Virus record (IMG/VR): IMGVR_UViG_3300037042_002604
Location: 1-29,353 of that record
Origin: a virus
Direction: 5' to 3' (one strand)
DNA length: 29,353 nt
The position numbers were made by a program, and so were the translations under genes. The notes under the pieces were generated by a model. It did not search any database. It saw nothing but the letters and a program-made list of their open reading frames with translations, and was not told the origin of the DNA. Below are positions 7,470-27,870 of the stretch, piece after piece. Position 1 is the first letter of the stretch, and each line of letters starts with the position of its first letter.

Positions 7470-8606
7470 TTAAGATCCGCATGTTACACCCGAATTTGGT
7501 GATCCAATATCTGGATCATAACACAATTCAAACATACTGCTTATTTGTATTCCTTGAAAATTATATAGTCCAGCATTTGAAGTCCAATTTGGAAATACTG
7601 CTGAGGGACCAGTAAATGATCCATAAGAAGATCCACAACATCCAACTCCAGCACCTAATCCATATAATGTAAATCCAGTAAATCCAGAACGTGTTGTAAT
7701 ACTATTGATATAATCAAAACTTATACCATAAGCAGCATAATTTTTTAATTTTGGATATTCGCAAATTGTAATATCATCTTCATTATAGGTTGGACCTTGA
7801 TAATCTGCTAATGTCTTTTCAAATACAACTTTTAAACCAGCAGGATGTGCGATCTCAAGATATGAATTTTTATATGCAGATGATTGAATACCAGTCTTTA
7901 ATAAATAAGACCAATCTTGAATCCAATTTCCATCTTGCATTCTAGAAACATTCAATGCGCTAGAATTTAGCGAACCTACTTTTTCATAAACATTAATTTC
8001 ACTTGAGAATGAATATTTTTCATCGTAAAATTTACCACCATTTAATCTTAGCATTATTTTCTTAGGAATTTCTATGGTGATATCTTCGTTTGATATCCCA
8101 AATAAAGTCTTAAAGAAATATTTAATTGAATCTTCTGTAGTCTTTTTATGATAAAATGTTCTTTTAACACCGTCAATAAAATTACGAAGTCTTGCTTCTG
8201 TAATATATCCACCATTAGATTCTAATGATTGAACATCAAATCCAGGAGTGTATATTTGAGATAATCTTTCTAGAAATTTAGTTCTAGTTTTTTGGACATC
8301 AATTATGTCTAAAAATGATTTGCTCAATTCGTACTGAGCACCTGATTCATTATCGCAATATAACCAATCATAATATTTTTGAATAAAATCAAATATTGTA
8401 GTACCATCCACATTATTAGCTATTCTATCTGATTTTTCATAAATTACCCATAAAGGAATTTGTTTTTCAATATCATATCTTGTTGGACAATTTTTTTCAT
8501 CAAATACAAGTTCGGCAACTTCATCTATAGCATTAGATAAAGATGAAGTTAATCTATTCTTTATAGTTGTAGATTGAGCAGATGATGTTAGTGATGATGA
8601 TAACAT
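7470..8606 (-). CDS. Baseplate wedge protein, gp7-like (short form)
   Basis: A 378-residue protein. Residues about 45-190 carry the pattern I associate with the gp7-position protein of marine T4-like phages: 'TTIFDFIQKYYDWLY', 'SFLDIID..RTKFLERL', 'LRNFIDGVKRTFYHKKTTEDSIKYFFKTLFG' and 'ITIEIPKKIMLRLNGGKF'. The C-terminal 150 residues are beta-rich with 'GVGCCGSSYGSF' and 'FELCYDPDIG'. T4 gp7 has about 1030 residues, so this would be a strongly reduced version. Synteny (gp6 before, gp8-like after) is the main support for calling it gp7. Its ATG overlaps the gp6 stop by one base (TAATG), suggesting coupled translation. Confidence 0.6.
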   Translation of the reverse strand: MLSSSLTSSAQSTTIKNRLTSSLSNAIDEVAELVFDEKNCPTRYDIEKQIPLWVIYEKSDRIANNVDGTTIFDFIQKYYDWLYCDNESGAQYELSKSFLDIIDVQKTRTKFLERLSQIYTPGFDVQSLESNGGYITEARLRNFIDGVKRTFYHKKTTEDSIKYFFKTLFGISNEDITIEIPKKIMLRLNGGKFYDEKYSFSSEINVYEKVGSLNSSALNVSRMQDGNWIQDWSYLLKTGIQSSAYKNSYLEIAHPAGLKVVFEKTLADYQGPTYNEDDITICEYPKLKNYAAYGISFDYINSITTRSGFTGFTLYGLGAGVGCCGSSYGSFTGPSAVFPNWTSNAGLYNFQGIQISSMFELCYDPDIGSPNSGVTCGS

Positions 8607-10360
8607 TAGATTACTGTTATATTATTTAAAGATAATGTTGTTAAATTATTTAAACTAAAAACTACGTTCTTTTTCACAAAATCCAAGGTTAATGTAACTG
8701 ACGATCCTGTTTTTATAGTTCCAGGTTGAATACTAAGAACACCCTTCTTTACTATAAAGTAACCAGAATTACGCACAAAGGTTCCACTAGATGTCCATAA
8801 TTGTAGATTTAAAATTTTATATTTATCTTGAGTTGAAGATGTATACATCTTTAGTACACATTTATTTCCAGGTGAATAATCTGAATCAAATTCAGTGCTG
8901 ATTGTTGTATATACACCAAGATCTAAAGAAAATTCATTATTTAAATTGAATAAAAACTCTTGAGTGTTTGATAATGGTCTTATTTGTTGTTGAAAATAGA
9001 TATTAAAATCTTCTGGAGTAATGACAATGTTTTTGACATCAGCATCCCCTACATTATCACTTCCAACATATTCAATAAAATTTTCTGCACTAAATTCTAC
9101 GTTATACTTTTTATTCTCTGCAAATTGTGTGGCGAATAAATTACGTAAATAATTTGTTACTTTTATTTGATTTGTTGTAGTATTTGCTGTAGTATTACCT
9201 AAACGATAAACAAAATCAACATAAGTTTGCACTGGATTTGATGTTACATATTCAGGAAATACTGTAATTATACTTCTTTCCTTTAAGAAATTTATTATTT
9301 TGATAACATCAGGATCGTCTGGATTTTTATTTGATGTTACAAATACTCTACCATATTTTGGTGGAGTTAAATCTTGACCACCAAATACATTAAAATCGTT
9401 TGGAGTATTAAAAAATCCTGCTTCTAGTAAAAGTGCTTTGTAATCATTTACAGTCACTGCTCTTTCTTGTGAAGCAAACCATTTTGGTGCTAAGAATCTA
9501 ATATCATCTAGATCTGGAGCATTTCTACCATTAGATGAAGAATTTACTGTTGTTATTGTTCCAGTTGGACTCGTAAATGCAGATATTCCATTTCCAGAAG
9601 ATCCATTTGTAGTTAAGTATCTAACTTTAATAGATTTTACACTAGTTGTAATTTGTCTTCCTAAAGAATTTTCAACACCAAATAGAATTCCAAATCCAGT
9701 AGAAGTTCTTTCTACGAAGTAGATATTTTCACTTGATTGGGAAACATATCCTACGTTTTGTAGACGAGTCCATATATTAGTTTCACTAACCCCCGTTGAT
9801 AATGTTTCAGTTATAGTTATTTTAATTGTAGATAAATCAAAATTATTATCAGCAATTGAAATTCTTTGATTAGTAAAATCGAAGGATGGAAGAGCATCAA
9901 ATTCAATATATTCTTGTCCTTCATGAACAATAAATTCTTGAGATTGTCCATCAACAATATCTTGATCTTCTAGATTGTAAAAATTAAAAGATCTACCATC
10001 AGAATCTTTGCCAGTGAATGCAGTTCCAGCATTTATTCTACCATCAGTATTAGATGAAATTTGAATTGTTGCAATCGAGCATGTTCTATCTGGAACAGTA
10101 AAACCAAGAGGTTTACATAAAGATATCATAGAACTTGTTTTCTGTGCGCTATCCAAAAATGCTTCGGCGTTAATCATATTAGCATAATATGCATAATAAA
10201 ATGTATTATAAGCAAGTAAATCTATAACAGTTTGTAACGCACTACCTTCAAAATTATATCCATCAAATAAAGTTTGAGTTCTTAGATAATCAGTCAAACT
10301 TCGTTTGATATCGTTGAATTCTAGTCCGCCAAGAGTGGTTGGTGTTAATTGTGATGCCAT
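8606..10360 (-). CDS. gp6: Baseplate wedge subunit gp6
   Basis: A 584-residue protein with the gp6 / baseplate-J-like signature at the N-terminus: 'LGGLEFNDIKRSLTDYLRTQ', 'FDGYNFEGSALQTVIDLLAYN', 'MINAEAFLDSAQ' and 'CKPLGFTVPDRTCSIATIQI'. The mid part has 'DDIRFLAPKWFASQERAVTVNDYKALL', the conserved core of this family in which the protein is threaded around the hub. In T4, gp6 dimers form the inner ring that ties the wedges together. The gene begins 2 nt after gp25 and overlaps the next gene by 1 nt. Length matches the family (T4 gp6, 660). Confidence 0.93.
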   Translation of the reverse strand: MASQLTPTTLGGLEFNDIKRSLTDYLRTQTLFDGYNFEGSALQTVIDLLAYNTFYYAYYANMINAEAFLDSAQKTSSMISLCKPLGFTVPDRTCSIATIQISSNTDGRINAGTAFTGKDSDGRSFNFYNLEDQDIVDGQSQEFIVHEGQEYIEFDALPSFDFTNQRISIADNNFDLSTIKITITETLSTGVSETNIWTRLQNVGYVSQSSENIYFVERTSTGFGILFGVENSLGRQITTSVKSIKVRYLTTNGSSGNGISAFTSPTGTITTVNSSSNGRNAPDLDDIRFLAPKWFASQERAVTVNDYKALLLEAGFFNTPNDFNVFGGQDLTPPKYGRVFVTSNKNPDDPDVIKIINFLKERSIITVFPEYVTSNPVQTYVDFVYRLGNTTANTTTNQIKVTNYLRNLFATQFAENKKYNVEFSAENFIEYVGSDNVGDADVKNIVITPEDFNIYFQQQIRPLSNTQEFLFNLNNEFSLDLGVYTTISTEFDSDYSPGNKCVLKMYTSSTQDKYKILNLQLWTSSGTFVRNSGYFIVKKGVLSIQPGTIKTGSSVTLTLDFVKKNVVFSLNNLTTLSLNNITVI

Positions 10361-10362
10361 TG

Positions 10363-10755
10363 TTATCTCGTTCTAATTACTGAAAGACTTATCGTATCAA
10401 ATATCCCTACACTTGGAATCGAATATTGTATTGTTATGTCTATTCTATTTTCTGATGGATACGGAAGAATGTAGATTTCATCTACCTTCACTCTTGGTTC
10501 ATTTATTTGTATTTGTTCTAATAACTTAAGTTGTATTTCAATTTTTGCATCATCTTCTACGTTTTCAAAAAGAACATCATAAACATTTCCACCAAACTCA
10601 TATTCAAAGGATCTTTCGCCATTGTTAGTTAAAATAATATTTTTAAGTGCTTGTCTAATTGCCGGAAGGTTATTAACAGTATTTAAATCATTAGTAAATG
10701 GATTTTTACTAATGAAAAATGGTATGTCTTTAAAATCTTGTTTTTTCTTCAGCAT
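10363..10755 (-). CDS. gp25: Baseplate wedge subunit gp25 (lysozyme-like fold)
   Basis: A 130-residue protein of the gp25 family. Landmarks: 'IRQALKNIILTNNGERSFEYEFG' (residues about 33-56), 'YDVLFENV', then 'LLEQIQINEPRVKVDEIYILPY' with the conserved E-P-R, and a last strand 'DITIQYSIPSVG'. In T4 and other contractile systems gp25 connects the sheath to the wedge and nucleates sheath assembly. It lies between the giant hub gene and gp6. No Shine-Dalgarno sequence is visible before the ATG; instead an exact T4-type late -10 octamer (TATAAATA) ends 5 nt upstream, so its transcript may be leaderless. Confidence 0.93.
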   Translation of the reverse strand: MLKKKQDFKDIPFFISKNPFTNDLNTVNNLPAIRQALKNIILTNNGERSFEYEFGGNVYDVLFENVEDDAKIEIQLKLLEQIQINEPRVKVDEIYILPYPSENRIDITIQYSIPSVGIFDTISLSVIRTR

Positions 10756-10760
10756 AATAT

Positions 10761-10768
10761 TATTTATA
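10761..10768 (-). promoter_or_regulatory. gp25: T4-type late -10 octamer upstream of gp25
   Basis: Exact TATAAATA on the minus strand, 5 nt before the gp25 ATG and just after the hub-gene stop. Expected start would coincide with the ATG, implying a leaderless message. It could instead be chance in AT-rich DNA. Confidence 0.5.
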
Positions 10769-21200: not shown

Positions 21201-22085
21201 TTAACTTTCGCTTAACTTCTGAAAATAACTCAGAGCATCTGATTCTTCATCGACATCTTCTTCGACTGGTTTCTTTGACTTCATGACTGGTTTACGTTCA
21301 CTCATATCAACGTCTTCAGCAGTCTTTGTTGAAGATGGAGCAGTGCTACGAATATCACCACCAAGAACTTCATAAAGACGAGTCTTAAGTTCTTCATATG
21401 ACTTAAAGTTAGTAGGATCTACAAATGGTAGAAGAGCATGTTGCGCTTTCCAAATCTTTTCCAACTTAGAATCATCATCTGAAAGAACAGTCTGTGAATC
21501 AAATTCAGACTTATCGTAATTATTGAATCCACCAACCTTACGAATCTTGATTCGGAAGTTTGCACCCTTCCAGAAGTCAAATGGATTGATTGGTTCTTCA
21601 TCACTAAACTCTGGTTTCATTGCTTCTTGAACCTTTTCAAAAATCTTTGTGCCAAACTTATAAAGGAAAACTTTTCCTTCATTCTGTGGATTGGCAGGAT
21701 CTGAAACAATGTAAACATTAGCGATATAGTTCAATTTACGCTTACGATTACGTGCAATATCCTTGTCGGATTCGAGTCCAGAATTCCAAAGTTGATTATT
21801 TAGTTCACCGACTGGATCCTTTTGTCCAAGGGTTGTCAATGAATTTTCAATATACCAACCACCTGGTCCTTGGAATGAATGCTCATAAACCTTTACCCAC
21901 GGAACATCCTCGTTATCTACTGGAGGAAGGAAACGTACAATTGCAAATCCGTTTCCTGACTTATCTTGTTCTGGTCGCCAGAACCGATCATCCTTATAGT
22001 CCTTAGTCTTGTTTTGATCTTCCATCTTCTTGATAAGATCATCAATACCCATCTTGGACTTCTTCTTAAGATCACTAAAACCCAT
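21201..22085 (-). CDS. gp32: Single-stranded DNA-binding protein gp32
   Basis: A 294-residue gp32. Basic N-terminal segment 'DLKKKSKMGIDDLIKK' for cooperative self-contact, OB-fold landmarks 'FWRPEQDKSGNGFAIVRFLPP', 'VYEHSFQGPGGWYIENSLTTLGQKDPV', 'RKLNYIANVYIVSDP' and 'VFLYKFGTKIFEKV', 'PINPFDFWKGANFRIKI', and an acidic C-terminal tail (VEEDVDEESDALSYF) that would recruit replication partners. T4 gp32 binds zinc through one His and three Cys; here H69 is kept but the protein has no cysteine at all, so it must be zinc-free. It coats ssDNA in replication and recombination. A TTAGGAAA ribosome site, a structured leader, a consensus promoter and a terminator make it a self-contained transcription unit. 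Confidence 0.95.
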   Translation of the reverse strand: MGFSDLKKKSKMGIDDLIKKMEDQNKTKDYKDDRFWRPEQDKSGNGFAIVRFLPPVDNEDVPWVKVYEHSFQGPGGWYIENSLTTLGQKDPVGELNNQLWNSGLESDKDIARNRKRKLNYIANVYIVSDPANPQNEGKVFLYKFGTKIFEKVQEAMKPEFSDEEPINPFDFWKGANFRIKIRKVGGFNNYDKSEFDSQTVLSDDDSKLEKIWKAQHALLPFVDPTNFKSYEELKTRLYEVLGGDIRSTAPSSTKTAEDVDMSERKPVMKSKKPVEEDVDEESDALSYFQKLSES

Positions 22086-24783: not shown

Positions 24784-24998
24784 ATTATAATTTTATTCTT
24801 AAGTTTTAAATTAAACTTGTCTTTTAGTAATTTATCTAATTCAGTGAATGATTCAGGGGAATCAAATAAAATAACAAGGGTTACGGTATCCGTTAAGACA
24901 CCGTAACCCGTTACTTTACACCCATCTAACTTTTCTATAAATCTTTTAGGTTTTCCACTTAACTCTTTGAAAGAGTAAGTATATGTTGCTTTTACCAT
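24780..24998 (-). CDS. Small uncharacterised protein
   Basis: A 72-residue protein from the ATG at 24998; the in-frame TTG one codon upstream is a weaker candidate. It starts 'MVKATYTYSFKELSGKPKRF' and ends in a basic helix (LLKDKFNLKLKNK). Predicted as one small alpha/beta fold; no membrane segment and no recognised family. Its middle is encoded across a perfect 10-bp inverted repeat (24878-24909) followed on the minus strand by a T-rich tract. It converges on the upstream plus-strand gene with a 4-nt overlap. Confidence 0.6.
   Translation of the reverse strand: MVKATYTYSFKELSGKPKRFIEKLDGCKVTGYGVLTDTVTLVILFDSPESFTELDKLLKDKFNLKLKNKIII
24878..24909 (-). repeat. Perfect inverted repeat inside a coding region
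   Basis: GGGTTACGGT (24878-24887) pairs with ACCGTAACCC (24900-24909), loop of 12 nt. On the minus strand it is followed by a T-rich stretch (TTGTTATTTTATTTG), which makes it resemble a weak terminator or an attenuating hairpin inside the 24780-24998 gene. Confidence 0.6.
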
Positions 24999-25016
24999 CA
25001 AGAATATTTAGAATTT

Positions 25017-25325
25017 TCACTTCTTAGAGCAAGACATGCTGCGATTACATTCCTTTACTTCATCACGAATGTCCCGTGCAGTGTCATCAATGTAACGATA
25101 CACAGCATCAAAATCACGATAGACTTCAACTCTGTCTGAGTCGATTTGTGCTTGACTCTTTTGATTGAGGATGATGTAGACAAGGGCAGAAGCAATAGCA
25201 ATGCTACCAATATTTGTAAACAGACTTGCCACACTAGACTCAAGATTCTTCCCAGCAAATGCAACAAACAGATTTGCAAAGAGCCCTAGAGCAGCAACAC
25301 CAGCGAAAAATACACGACTTGACAT
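25017..25325 (-). CDS. Small two-span membrane protein
   Basis: A 102-residue protein. The ATG at 25325 is preferred because AAAGGAG lies 8 nt upstream; the frame is open 38 codons further but that stretch has no ribosome site. Two hydrophobic segments, residues about 5-24 and 36-54, joined by a short polar loop (GKNLES), then a charged cytoplasmic tail with 'DSDRVEVYRDFDAVYRYIDDTARDIRDEVKEC', probably a coiled coil, ending in two cysteines. I recall similar small membrane proteins with a V-Y-R-x-x-D tail in marine T4-like phages, with no known function. A role in lysis timing or superinfection control is possible but unsupported. Confidence 0.7.
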   Translation of the reverse strand: MSSRVFFAGVAALGLFANLFVAFAGKNLESSVASLFTNIGSIAIASALVYIILNQKSQAQIDSDRVEVYRDFDAVYRYIDDTARDIRDEVKECNRSMSCSKK

Positions 25326-25352
25326 ATTATTAACTCCTTTGTTAAAATTATT

Positions 25353-25373
25353 GTATGGAACACGCTTCCATAC
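25353..25373 (-). terminator. Hairpin after the HNH gene (possible terminator)
   Basis: An 8-bp perfect stem (25353-25360 with 25366-25373, GTATGGAA/TTCCATAC) with a 5-nt loop, followed on the minus strand by the A/T-rich AATAATTTTAAC but no clean T-run. It separates the HNH gene from the membrane-protein gene. Weak terminator or processing site; unproven. Confidence 0.4.
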
Positions 25374-25425
25374 CATCTTTGGTCCAAACGACTTCTTCAA
25401 GATAAACCAATTTTCATTTTTAAAT

Positions 25426-25785
25426 TTATTCATAAGCATTCCCGATTTGATGAAGTTCTCTGTGACAGTTAGCGCATAATAATATGCATTTACTTAATTC
25501 ATTTTTAAGTTTACTTTCACTTAATTGTCGCATTTTTGACCATTCGTATTGTTTGGTGGAATCATCAATATGGTGTAACTCCAAAGCAGCGATACATTTA
25601 GAATATCCACATTTAGAACAACATCCACCCATATCATTAACTACTTCTATTTTTCTTTTTTTCCATCTCTCCATACAATATTGATTAAAACAATCTTTAC
25701 AATATGAAGATGATTTTCTTCCTTTTTTATTATAGAAATTATTTTCTGTTTTTTCTTTATTACATTTAGTACATGTTTTATTCAT
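25426..25785 (-). CDS. HNH endonuclease (homing type)
   Basis: A 119-residue protein. An N-terminal zinc ribbon (C5-x2-C8 ... C29-x2-C32) is followed by the HNH module: C56-x2-C59, 'IAALELHHIDD' with H71-H72, and 'LLCANCHRELH' with C104, N106, C107, H108 and H112. This is the arrangement of free-standing phage HNH homing nucleases, which cut DNA lacking the gene and so spread it. It sits between a tRNA gene and a small membrane gene. It has an exact late octamer TATAAATA 7 nt before its ATG, inside an inverted repeat, and no ribosome site, a setup like the late-promoter control known for several T4 genes including I-TevI. The target site is not known. Confidence 0.88.
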   Translation of the reverse strand: MNKTCTKCNKEKTENNFYNKKGRKSSSYCKDCFNQYCMERWKKRKIEVVNDMGGCCSKCGYSKCIAALELHHIDDSTKQYEWSKMRQLSESKLKNELSKCILLCANCHRELHQIGNAYE

Positions 25786-25807
25786 GGTTAGATATTTATA
25801 TTCTAAC
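25786..25807 (-). promoter_or_regulatory. T4-type late promoter within an inverted repeat, upstream of HNH
   Basis: TATAAATA (minus strand, 25800-25793) is an exact T4 late -10. It is flanked by GTTAGA/TCTAAC (25802-25807 and 25787-25792 on the plus strand), able to form a 6-bp stem. The expected start, about 6 nt downstream, falls 2 nt before the ATG. Confidence 0.6.
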
Positions 25808-25816
25808 TAATTTCAA

Positions 25817-25888
25817 CGACCCCACCAGGAATCGAACCTGGAATAACAGCTTAGAAGGCTGTAGTTATATCCTTTTAACTATGAGGTC
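25817..25888 (-). tRNA. tRNA-Arg (anticodon UCU)
   Basis: A 72-nt cloverleaf: acceptor GACCTCA with TGGGGTC, U8-A9, D stem GTTA/TAAC with GG in the loop, anticodon stem ACAGC/GCTGT with loop CTTCTAA (anticodon TCT), 4-nt variable loop, T stem CCAGG/CCTGG with the normal loop TTCGATT, discriminator G. No CCA is encoded. It reads AGA/AGG, AGA being common in the phage genes here. A TTGACT-17-TATAAT promoter lies immediately upstream. Confidence 0.95.
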
Positions 25889-25898
25889 TTATACTCCC

Positions 25899-25927
25899 AT
25901 TATACTACAGATGGTGAGTCGAGTCAA
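25899..25927 (-). promoter_or_regulatory. Sigma70-type promoter for tRNA-Arg
   Basis: Minus strand: TTGACT (25927-25922), 17-nt spacer, TATAAT (25904-25899). The start would lie about 4 nt before the tRNA 5' end. It sits just after the stop of the upstream gene. Confidence 0.85.
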
Positions 25928-25929
25928 GG

Positions 25930-26241
25930 TTAAACTGTAAGTTTCAGACCACCTGTGTCGAGTGTCTTCTTACCTGGGATAAAAAGATTATTGACAAAAG
26001 TTGTCGTGTAGTGGTTTGCAAGATCCGATTGTGGATCTACAATAAACATAATAAAATTCTTAGCAAGTGTAAATCCATTTTCATCATTTGCATATGGCAT
26101 CCACTTTGCCATTAGCAACTTGCCTTCTGGAGAAGGAATCAAGACTGCTGGATTCTTTACAGTAATTGTTTCACCGTTATCAATAACGGTACAAAGCATT
26201 TCTTCACCACTAATAAGACGAATAATCTTCACTTCACTCAT
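25930..26241 (-). CDS. Sm-like/SH3-like fold small protein conserved in T4-like phages
   Basis: A 103-residue protein starting at the ATG at 26241, which has AAAAGGAG upstream; the longer frame to 26268 is not used. The pattern 'VKIIRLISGEEMLCTVIDNGETITVKNPAVLIPSPEGKL', then 'KWMPYANDENGFTLAKNFIMFIVDPQSDLANHYTTTFVN', is very familiar from marine T4-like phages. Alternating strands with G-E-E and K-N-P-A turn motifs suggest an Sm/SH3-type barrel, as in RNA-binding LSm proteins. Biochemical role unknown; RNA binding is only a structural guess. It belongs to a minus-strand run of small genes between the holin-like gene and tRNA-Arg. Confidence 0.75.
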   Translation of the reverse strand: MSEVKIIRLISGEEMLCTVIDNGETITVKNPAVLIPSPEGKLLMAKWMPYANDENGFTLAKNFIMFIVDPQSDLANHYTTTFVNNLFIPGKKTLDTGGLKLTV

Positions 26242-27290: not shown

Positions 27291-27779
27291 TTATTTCCTA
27301 TTGAATTTATCAGTTTTACATTCCCACCAAAAATGTGGCATTTGAGTAATGCCATCATAAATCAATGGAGTATAGGTTGGTTTGAAAATAGATCTAGAAT
27401 CGCAACAAATTGAAGTAACAAAAATATTAGAATCTGAAATGCCATAATTCAGTAAAATATTTTTTACTGTTTTAAAATTATTACCAGACATGCAACCGCT
27501 ATCCACTACAATAAAATTATCATATGGATCTAGTTGATCTGGATGAATATTTACTTTAAATTCATCAGCGTATGGAATACTAACTGGTTCAATATCAATT
27601 GGTCTATTATCGACAGAAAGACGATGAGAAAGTAATTGAGCAAAAATTCCAGAATATTCTGTACTAAGTTGAAGAATACATGTATTCAATTTAATTTGAA
27701 AATTATTTCGAACATAATCAACAATATCTTGTACTAAAGTTAGTTCCCATTCTTGGGAGATGTATAGATTTGATTTCAT
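27291..27779 (-). CDS. Phosphoribosyltransferase-like protein
   Basis: A 162-residue protein. Residues 89-102 (FIVVDSGCMSGNNF) resemble the PRPP loop of type I phosphoribosyltransferases: hydrophobic strand, D, small residues, G, then a helix (KTVKNILLNYGI). It is followed by a strand with 'NIFVTSICCDSRS' as in that fold, and ends 'LIYDGITQMPHFWWECKTD', a W-rich tail that could cover the active site. If real, it would transfer a ribosyl-phosphate to a base; the substrate cannot be told. The second acidic residue usual in the PRPP motif (D-D or E-D) is missing, a caution. The gene begins 5 nt after the tRNA-Tyr and has only a weak ribosome site. Confidence 0.5.
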   Translation of the reverse strand: MKSNLYISQEWELTLVQDIVDYVRNNFQIKLNTCILQLSTEYSGIFAQLLSHRLSVDNRPIDIEPVSIPYADEFKVNIHPDQLDPYDNFIVVDSGCMSGNNFKTVKNILLNYGISDSNIFVTSICCDSRSIFKPTYTPLIYDGITQMPHFWWECKTDKFNRK

Positions 27780-27784
27780 CTTAA

Positions 27785-27866
27785 TGGATCATGAAGGACT
27801 TGCACCTACGAAGTTAAATAACAAGTGATTTACAGTCACTCCCCGTTGCTGCTTGGGTAATGATCC
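27785..27866 (-). tRNA. tRNA-Tyr (anticodon GUA), class II with altered elbow
   Basis: An 82-nt cloverleaf: acceptor GGATCAT/ATGATCC, U8-A9, D stem CCC/GGG, anticodon stem AGTGA/TCACT with loop CTGTAAA (anticodon GTA), long variable arm (GTTA..AAC), T stem GTAGG/CCTTC with one U-U mismatch, discriminator A, no encoded CCA. The T-loop is TGCAAGT, with G in place of T55, and the D-loop has AG where GG (18-19) is usual. Otherwise it matches the bacterial Tyr pattern closely. It lies 4 nt from tRNA-Ile. Confidence 0.85.
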
Positions 27867-27870
27867 AAAG

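Follow-up and report, generated by a model that had tools for sequence, protein, structure and literature searches.

A candidate HNH homing cassette with a substitute tRNA-Arg(UCU) and a late-promoter motif in a start-codon hairpin in a probable T4-like cyanophage

Introduction

Homing endonucleases usually insert where the harm is small, such as next to a gene or inside a self-splicing intron. Synthetic home-and-rescue gene drives cut a gene with a nuclease and restore that gene from the inserted cassette, whose copy lacks the target sequence.

Some phage homing endonucleases are placed under a late promoter associated with a hairpin. Published cases are I-TevI, segB in the T4 tRNA region and mobE of Aeh1 (PMC2988022), and this type of control is also covered in PMC3014915. 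In mobE and I-TevI the hairpin hides the ribosome-binding site, and the late promoter is positioned such that late RNA loses the inhibitory 5' arm (PMC2988022). The segB gene of T4 lies among tRNA genes next to tRNA-Arg, and its late motif, CATAAATA, is part of the 5' arm of a hairpin that covers the start, with a predicted energy of -19.4 kcal/mol and with both the Shine-Dalgarno sequence and the AUG in the stem. Preferred inheritance of the T4 tRNA region is reported in the title of a cited paper, and both the tRNA association of SegB and the amplification of the tRNA segment against tRNA-cutting defence are known (PMC13096335).

Here we describe a locus in an IMG/VR contig record of 29,353 bases (IMGVR_UViG_3300037042_002604), the whole of which is referred to as the window. 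Like segB, the gene under study lies among tRNA genes next to tRNA-Arg and has a late-type motif in a hairpin at its start. It differs in encoding an HNH rather than a GIY-YIG protein, and in sitting beside the remains of an interrupted resident tRNA, a feature that the passages on segB in these sources do not describe. It shares the HNH type with Aeh1 mobE (PMC2988022) and departs from mobE and I-TevI in having no Shine-Dalgarno sequence to hide and a predicted leader of only 2 nt. Late-promoter hairpins and the tRNA association of SegB are thus known, whereas a homing nuclease accompanied by a replacement tRNA was not found in the titles and abstracts of the open-licence literature searched, which is weak evidence of absence.

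Results

The phage and its probable late-promoter motif

The gp32 gene (21201-22085, minus strand) has its best listed matches, with identities near 55%, in cyanophages and marine virus records, and the baseplate genes gp25 (10363-10755) and gp6 (8606-10360) were also found. The window is a fragment of a T4-like myovirus, the host of which is probably a cyanobacterium. A late-promoter motif has been published for cyanophages (PMC2984593). In three cyanophage stretches, in which the annotated genes all lie on one strand, NATAAATA occurs 11 times on the coding strand and never on the opposite one, including once before gp25 in each stretch. The motif is likely to be a genuine late-promoter element in these phages, although the gap to the next annotated start is 18-254 nt at these 11 sites and 7 nt at the HNH gene of the window. 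Within the window, ATAAATA is the rarest of 21 7-mers of the same composition (10 copies, the next rarest having 19), and 4 of the 10 copies fall in the 60 nt before a listed ORF start; two of the other 7-mers likewise place 4 copies there, from totals of 41 and 45.

At gp25 (10755-10768, minus strand) TATAAATA ends 5 nt before the ATG, a Shine-Dalgarno sequence is absent and late RNA is predicted to begin with the A of the ATG itself. This layout is conserved in the related loci L019, L020 and L021, one of which is identical to the window there, suggesting that this phage may tolerate late RNAs with almost no leader. Elsewhere in the window (27779-27867, minus strand), a tRNA-Tyr ends 4 nt before the ATG of the ORF at 27291-27779; a related locus, L004, has tRNA-Glu and tRNA-Tyr in tandem.

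The HNH gene and the hairpin at its start

The features of the locus are listed in Table 1. The protein belongs to phrog_2255, relatives of which were detected by tblastn in FelixO1, kuraviruses and PAK_P4. The FelixO1 copies lie in a tRNA cluster, but the annotations examined for these relatives name no substitute tRNA-Arg cassette. Residues His71, His72, Asn106 and His108 are invariant across eight sequences. No GIY-YIG domain was found: the best PHROG matches are HNH endonucleases, and there is no Pfam match at E 0.01. Apart from the HNH gene, the only listed ORFs in the 443-bp unit are two overlapping ones of 66 and 55 aa on the plus strand, neither of them long enough for an integrase.

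Table 1. Features from the tRNA-Arg promoter to the right flank of the HNH gene.
Feature	Position	Strand	Basis
Proposed mobile cassette: substitute tRNA-Arg(UCU), spacer hairpin and HNH gene minus its last codons	25446..25888	minus	absent from near-identical allele L022, present in L004/L017
Sigma70-like promoter of the resident tRNA gene, TTGACT-17-TATAAT	25899..25927	minus	11/12 consensus bases; nearly the same site in empty allele L022
Substitute tRNA-Arg, anticodon TCT	25817..25888	minus	ARAGORN
Spacer from tRNA to HNH gene, 31 nt	25786..25816	minus	30/31 identical to L004
5' arm GTTAGA	25802..25807	minus	sequence and folding
Loop ATATAAATA	25793-25801	minus	sequence
Putative late-promoter motif TATAAATA within the loop, predicted +1 = 25787	25793..25800	minus	spacing convention (PMC2988020)
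3' arm TCTAAC	25787..25792	minus	sequence and folding
C between 3' arm and ATG	25786	minus	sequence
HNH start codon ATG	25785-25783	minus	sequence
HNH endonuclease gene, 119 aa, phrog_2255	25426..25785	minus	E 3e-32; H71, H72, N106, H108 present
3' remnant of resident tRNA-Arg, TCGGGAA, read as part of the HNH C-terminus	25439..25445	minus	comparison with L022, L023 and L026
Apparently co-converted right flank	24946..25438	minus	81-94% identity to L022 per 100 bp, then 99-100%

A sequence-only reading of this DNA had proposed that TATAAATA lies in the loop of a GTTAGA/TCTAAC stem, and this is indeed the case, with the motif taking up 8 of the 9 loop bases. Between the stem and the ATG there is 1 nt, rather than the 2 nt given there. 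T4 late promoters span -13 to -6 (PMC2988020), and this spacing predicts the very start near 25787 that had been suggested, with a leader of 2 nt. The hairpin begins 9 nt after the tRNA, and the AUG sits 1 nt outside the 6-bp stem. A pattern search found no Shine-Dalgarno sequence before the HNH gene; the same pattern is absent from 19 of the 31 listed ORFs. A split ribosome-binding site like that of T4 gene 25 (PMC3014915) was also considered and rejected, there being no Shine-Dalgarno sequence between the tRNA and the stem. No terminator-like site was found in 25650-26050.

Folded alone, the 22-nt hairpin has a predicted energy of -3.6 kcal/mol (z -3.27), while the 91-nt context around it shows no excess of structure (z 0.32). 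The window holds 3 copies of TATAAATA against 6.4 expected. When TATAAATA was fixed and the 31-nt spacer shuffled around it, 260 of 20,000 shuffles (1.3%) enclosed the motif in a 6-bp stem, and 1.9% of all 8-mers of the window are enclosed in a comparable stem. Comparison with L004 gave 1 difference in the 31 spacer positions and 17 in 112 third codon positions (Fisher p 0.12), and constraint on the spacer is not demonstrated by this pair. The statistics of the window are suggestive, not decisive, and the relatives described below provide stronger support for the hairpin and motif than the window alone.

Comparison with the empty allele

The sequence-only reading missed the main fact about this locus, which is that the nuclease gene and the tRNA-Arg appear to be one mobile unit that replaces a resident tRNA-Arg. 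A phage nearly identical to the window (loci L022 and L072) has no HNH gene, and its tRNA-Arg(UCU) is a different, native one that follows a nearly identical promoter. The two agree at 99.7% over 1.9 kb on the left and at 95% over a further 1.6 kb, and at 99.2% over 10.7 kb on the right, with lower identity near the site. Near the site, 900 bp of the left flank are identical, and 97 of the last 100 positions match. The right flank, by contrast, shows 81-94% identity per 100 bp for about 500 bp before returning to 99-100%. Presence and absence of the HNH gene between near-identical phages, together with a flank that looks co-converted, fits a free-standing HNH homing endonuclease. Judged from this comparison, the cassette appears to have replaced the native tRNA-Arg except for its 3' tail.

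The same tRNA-HNH unit is present on another background in L004 and L017, for which the nearest empty form found is L023 (352/400 on the right and 329/433 aligned columns on the left, compared with L004). On a third background, L026, the same tRNA occurs without the HNH gene, the corresponding empty form being L069 (384/401 left, 386/400 right). At 13040-13140 of L026, the substitute tRNA-Arg is followed by a short scar and then by a longer remnant of the resident tRNA, an arrangement that could represent either loss of the HNH gene or an intermediate. The tRNA and the first spacer bases (79 nt) are identical in the window, L017 and L026, while immediately upstream only 285 of 408 columns agree between the window and L026. 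Among 57 loci with the resident type of tRNA, 32 match the flanks of the window and none has an HNH gene at the site, an absence that is partly by selection since these loci were found through their intact resident tRNA.

tRNA-Arg genes beside related HNH genes

Of at least 548 relatives reached by a profile scan with eight relatives, 80 HNH loci were retained. Among these 80, a tRNA lies within 300 bp in 64 and a tRNA-Arg(UCU) within 300 bp in 44. Arg(UCU) makes up 38 of the 81 tRNAs at up to 150 bp and 6 of the 153 beyond 300 bp (Fisher 3.5e-15, with loci that are not independent). Seven annotated phage relatives gave a weaker picture: three have tRNAs within 1 kb, none of them an annotated Arg, and four have no annotated tRNA.

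In 7 of 82 loci the HNH gene lies between matching 5' and 3' tRNA halves that form 6 or 7 of 7 acceptor pairs, compared with a mean of 0.59 and a maximum of 4 in 500 permuted controls. Two of these loci are from kuraviruses and five from other contigs, and an intact tRNA-Arg(UCU) lies within 300 bp in six, the exception being L144. Among the kuraviruses, which are E. coli phages, LAMP has an intact tRNA-Arg, whereas in Bas92 and Ptacy1479 a substitute tRNA-Arg(UCU) and an antisense HNH gene stand between the two halves of a LAMP-type tRNA. In place of the resident tRNA, other HNH genes occupy the same locus in Bas93 (L096), where a tRNA-Arg-like sequence can be seen by eye but ARAGORN calls none, and in Paul (L101), which has a tRNA-Arg; Bas94 (L098) has an odd tRNA-like sequence there and no HNH gene. 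Breakage and replacement of a tRNA gene seems to have happened several times, namely on two window-type backgrounds, in kuraviruses and in five other contigs. The tRNA need not have come with the nuclease, since tRNA-Args like the substitute occur in four cyanophages without an HNH gene of this family within 700 bp.

Several of the resident tRNA-Args are broken at or near GGATAGA, a heptamer of the D-arm. On either strand, GGATAGA is found no more than 60 nt upstream of 13 of 74 HNH genes, compared with a mean of 0.52 and a next best of 3 among its 140 permutations; these upstream copies may be a target-like operator, as for I-TevI, or left-over target DNA. The heptamer is present in 1 of 42 distinct HNH-adjacent tRNA-Args versus 29 of 30 in loci retrieved by an anticodon/T-arm pattern. 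These counts do not establish that the D-arm of the substitute tRNA was recoded convergently, the control being a single tRNA subtype and GGATAT-type tRNA-Args occurring also in cyanophages without an adjacent HNH gene of this family.

Spacers and hairpins in the relatives

An HNH start was assigned for 80 of 83 sequences by choosing the ATG with a CxxC rule, which may have set some starts wrongly. An upstream tRNA on the same strand is present in 35 loci, of which 34 were covered and one, with a spacer above 160 nt, was left out. The upstream same-strand tRNA was Arg(UCU) in 21 loci (20 plus the window), from which we used 17 spacers, with a mean length of 45 nt, after excluding L110 (6 nt), the exact duplicates L128 and L166 and, by hand, L156 (155 nt, holding TATAAATA). 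ATAAATA is present in 10 of these 17 distinct spacers, compared with a mean of 0.79 and a maximum of 5 in 2000 shuffles, and the best other permutation of ATAAATA reaches 4 of 17. The spacers are not independent, as the window and L102 are one base apart and L124, L130 and L133 are close.

In all 10 spacers with ATAAATA, at least six predicted pairs span the motif and would be lost from an RNA started at +1. The predicted leader is 17-22 nt in eight of them and 2 nt in the window and L102; the late RNA of the window would not keep a normal leader. Folding z-scores of the 17 spacers range from -0.96 to -6.55, with the window at -1.32. Related stems recur as GTTAGA/TCTAAC in the window, GGTTAGA/TCTAACC in L004, TTGGTTAGA/TCTAACCAA in L108 and GGATAGA/TCTATCC in L135. 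In L121, L124, L130, L133, L131 and L127, an outer stem is predicted to pair the spacer with the first codons, with the AUG inside. For this L121-type geometry, 92.5% of the alignment cells are paired versus 31-56% when the stem is slid. Double changes are seen in 2 of its 16 pairs, a number also reached by 60 of 500 shuffles, one of them being in L127 and out of register. L121, L127 and L131 have CTAAATAG or CTATATAG at the hairpin position held by TATAAATA in L124, L130 and L133, and these are perhaps the late motif of another phage. Hairpins are also present where a late motif was not seen (L165, L169, L177) and are predicted upstream of HNH genes with a tRNA on the other strand (e.g., L103).

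As the motif is present in 10 of 17 spacers and the pairs that span it would be lost from late RNA, a T4-style late switch is well supported for the HNH family on the basis of sequence. A T4-type portal and sheath were found in 1 of 20 HNH-bearing records, many of them fragments, which leaves T4-type late transcription unproven in the majority.

Discussion

Taken together, the comparisons favour a free-standing HNH homing cassette that targets tRNA-Arg(UCU), carries a substitute tRNA-Arg(UCU) and has its nuclease delayed by a late promoter in a hairpin at the start codon, and we assign this reading a probability of roughly 0.65. The sequences themselves show the replaced allele, the tRNA remnant, the co-conversion-like flank, the strong link to tRNA-Arg among the sampled relatives and the recurrence of the hairpin with the late motif; cleavage, late timing, the block to translation and rescue by the tRNA are inferred from them. 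In a mixed infection, the HNH nuclease would cut the resident tRNA-Arg of a cassette-free phage, and repair would copy in the cassette along with part of its flanks. Transcribed from the resident sigma70-like promoter, the substitute tRNA would maintain decoding of AGA. In early read-through RNA from the tRNA promoter, the hairpin would form against the start codon. Once replication has taken place, gp55-type late transcription would start from TATAAATA inside the hairpin and yield RNA without the 5' arm; in the window nearly the whole hairpin would be lost from a late RNA that is nearly leaderless.

The sequence-only reading had likened this arrangement to a control used in T4. The comparison holds insofar as the arrangement is published for I-TevI, segB and mobE, the layout of segB is alike and the motif-hairpin combination recurs in the relatives. 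It does not extend to the details of the window, which unlike the T4 cases is near-leaderless, has no Shine-Dalgarno sequence and places the AUG just outside a weak stem. The window thus looks like a stripped-down version of the switch, in which the translational block is likely to be weaker than in T4 segB.

The dyad could instead be a DNA operator: the HNH protein would bind a sequence like its homing site beside its own promoter and repress itself, and the hairpin would be a by-product of a palindromic site. Autorepression has a precedent in I-TevI (PMC2988022), the enrichment of GGATAGA upstream of HNH genes fits such a site, and so do the hairpins of L165, L169 and L177, which have no visible late motif. 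However, the arms in the window and L004 read GTTAGA and GGTTAGA rather than GGATAGA, the stems of the L121-L133 group reach into the coding sequence, which fits RNA better than DNA, and the upstream heptamers could equally be left-over target DNA. We consider the operator unlikely, though it deserves to be taken seriously. We are just as doubtful that the HNH gene and the tRNA-Arg are merely neighbours in a recombination-prone tRNA region, the substitute tRNA having arrived by ordinary recombination and having no rescue function. Similar tRNA-Args without an adjacent HNH gene of the family, L026 with its tRNA alone, and the general enrichment of tRNAs near SegB-type homing endonucleases (PMC13096335) all point that way, but mere proximity accounts poorly for split tRNA halves around the HNH gene, six of the seven cases having an intact tRNA-Arg(UCU) nearby, for the strong Arg(UCU) enrichment beside HNH genes and for the same unit on two backgrounds.

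Chance pairing of the stem and TATAAATA in AT-rich DNA, with the HNH gene weakly translated from tRNA read-through RNA and under no timing control, would agree with the 1.3-1.9% level in the window alone and with the unstructured 91-nt context. It is at odds with the motif lying within a predicted hairpin in 10 of 17 family spacers and with the rarity of ATAAATA in the window except upstream of starts, and we regard it as improbable. Least probable is a role of the hairpin in 3' processing of the tRNA or in stopping transcription after it, which its position 9 nt downstream of the tRNA would suit; a terminator-like site was not found in the region searched, and hairpins are also predicted before HNH genes whose tRNA is on the opposite strand.

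The preferred reading, a homing cassette that supplies its own tRNA-Arg(UCU), may apply beyond this phage. Many unrelated phages could carry HNH nucleases that cut tRNA-Arg(UCU) at the GGATAGA of the D-arm and supply a divergent tRNA-Arg(UCU) without the site, with T4-like members delaying the nuclease by a hidden late promoter, and the swap of the tRNA body might evade tRNA-cutting host defences; we hold the odds of this wider proposal to be about even. In its logic of cut and replacement, the cassette resembles the synthetic home-and-rescue drives, with a rescue that would be provided by the substitute tRNA. It would differ from them in being natural, 443 bp long, aimed at a tRNA and spread in mixed infections of phages.

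The locus contrasts with the usual low-harm insertion of homing endonucleases in that a tRNA gene is broken by the element, which also appears to take over the function of that gene. If our reading is correct, the cassette would be a natural model for home-and-rescue inheritance and would explain why phage tRNA-Arg genes change identity within a group. It would also add a new nuclease family to those with a late-promoter hairpin switch, the phage described here having a near-leaderless version.
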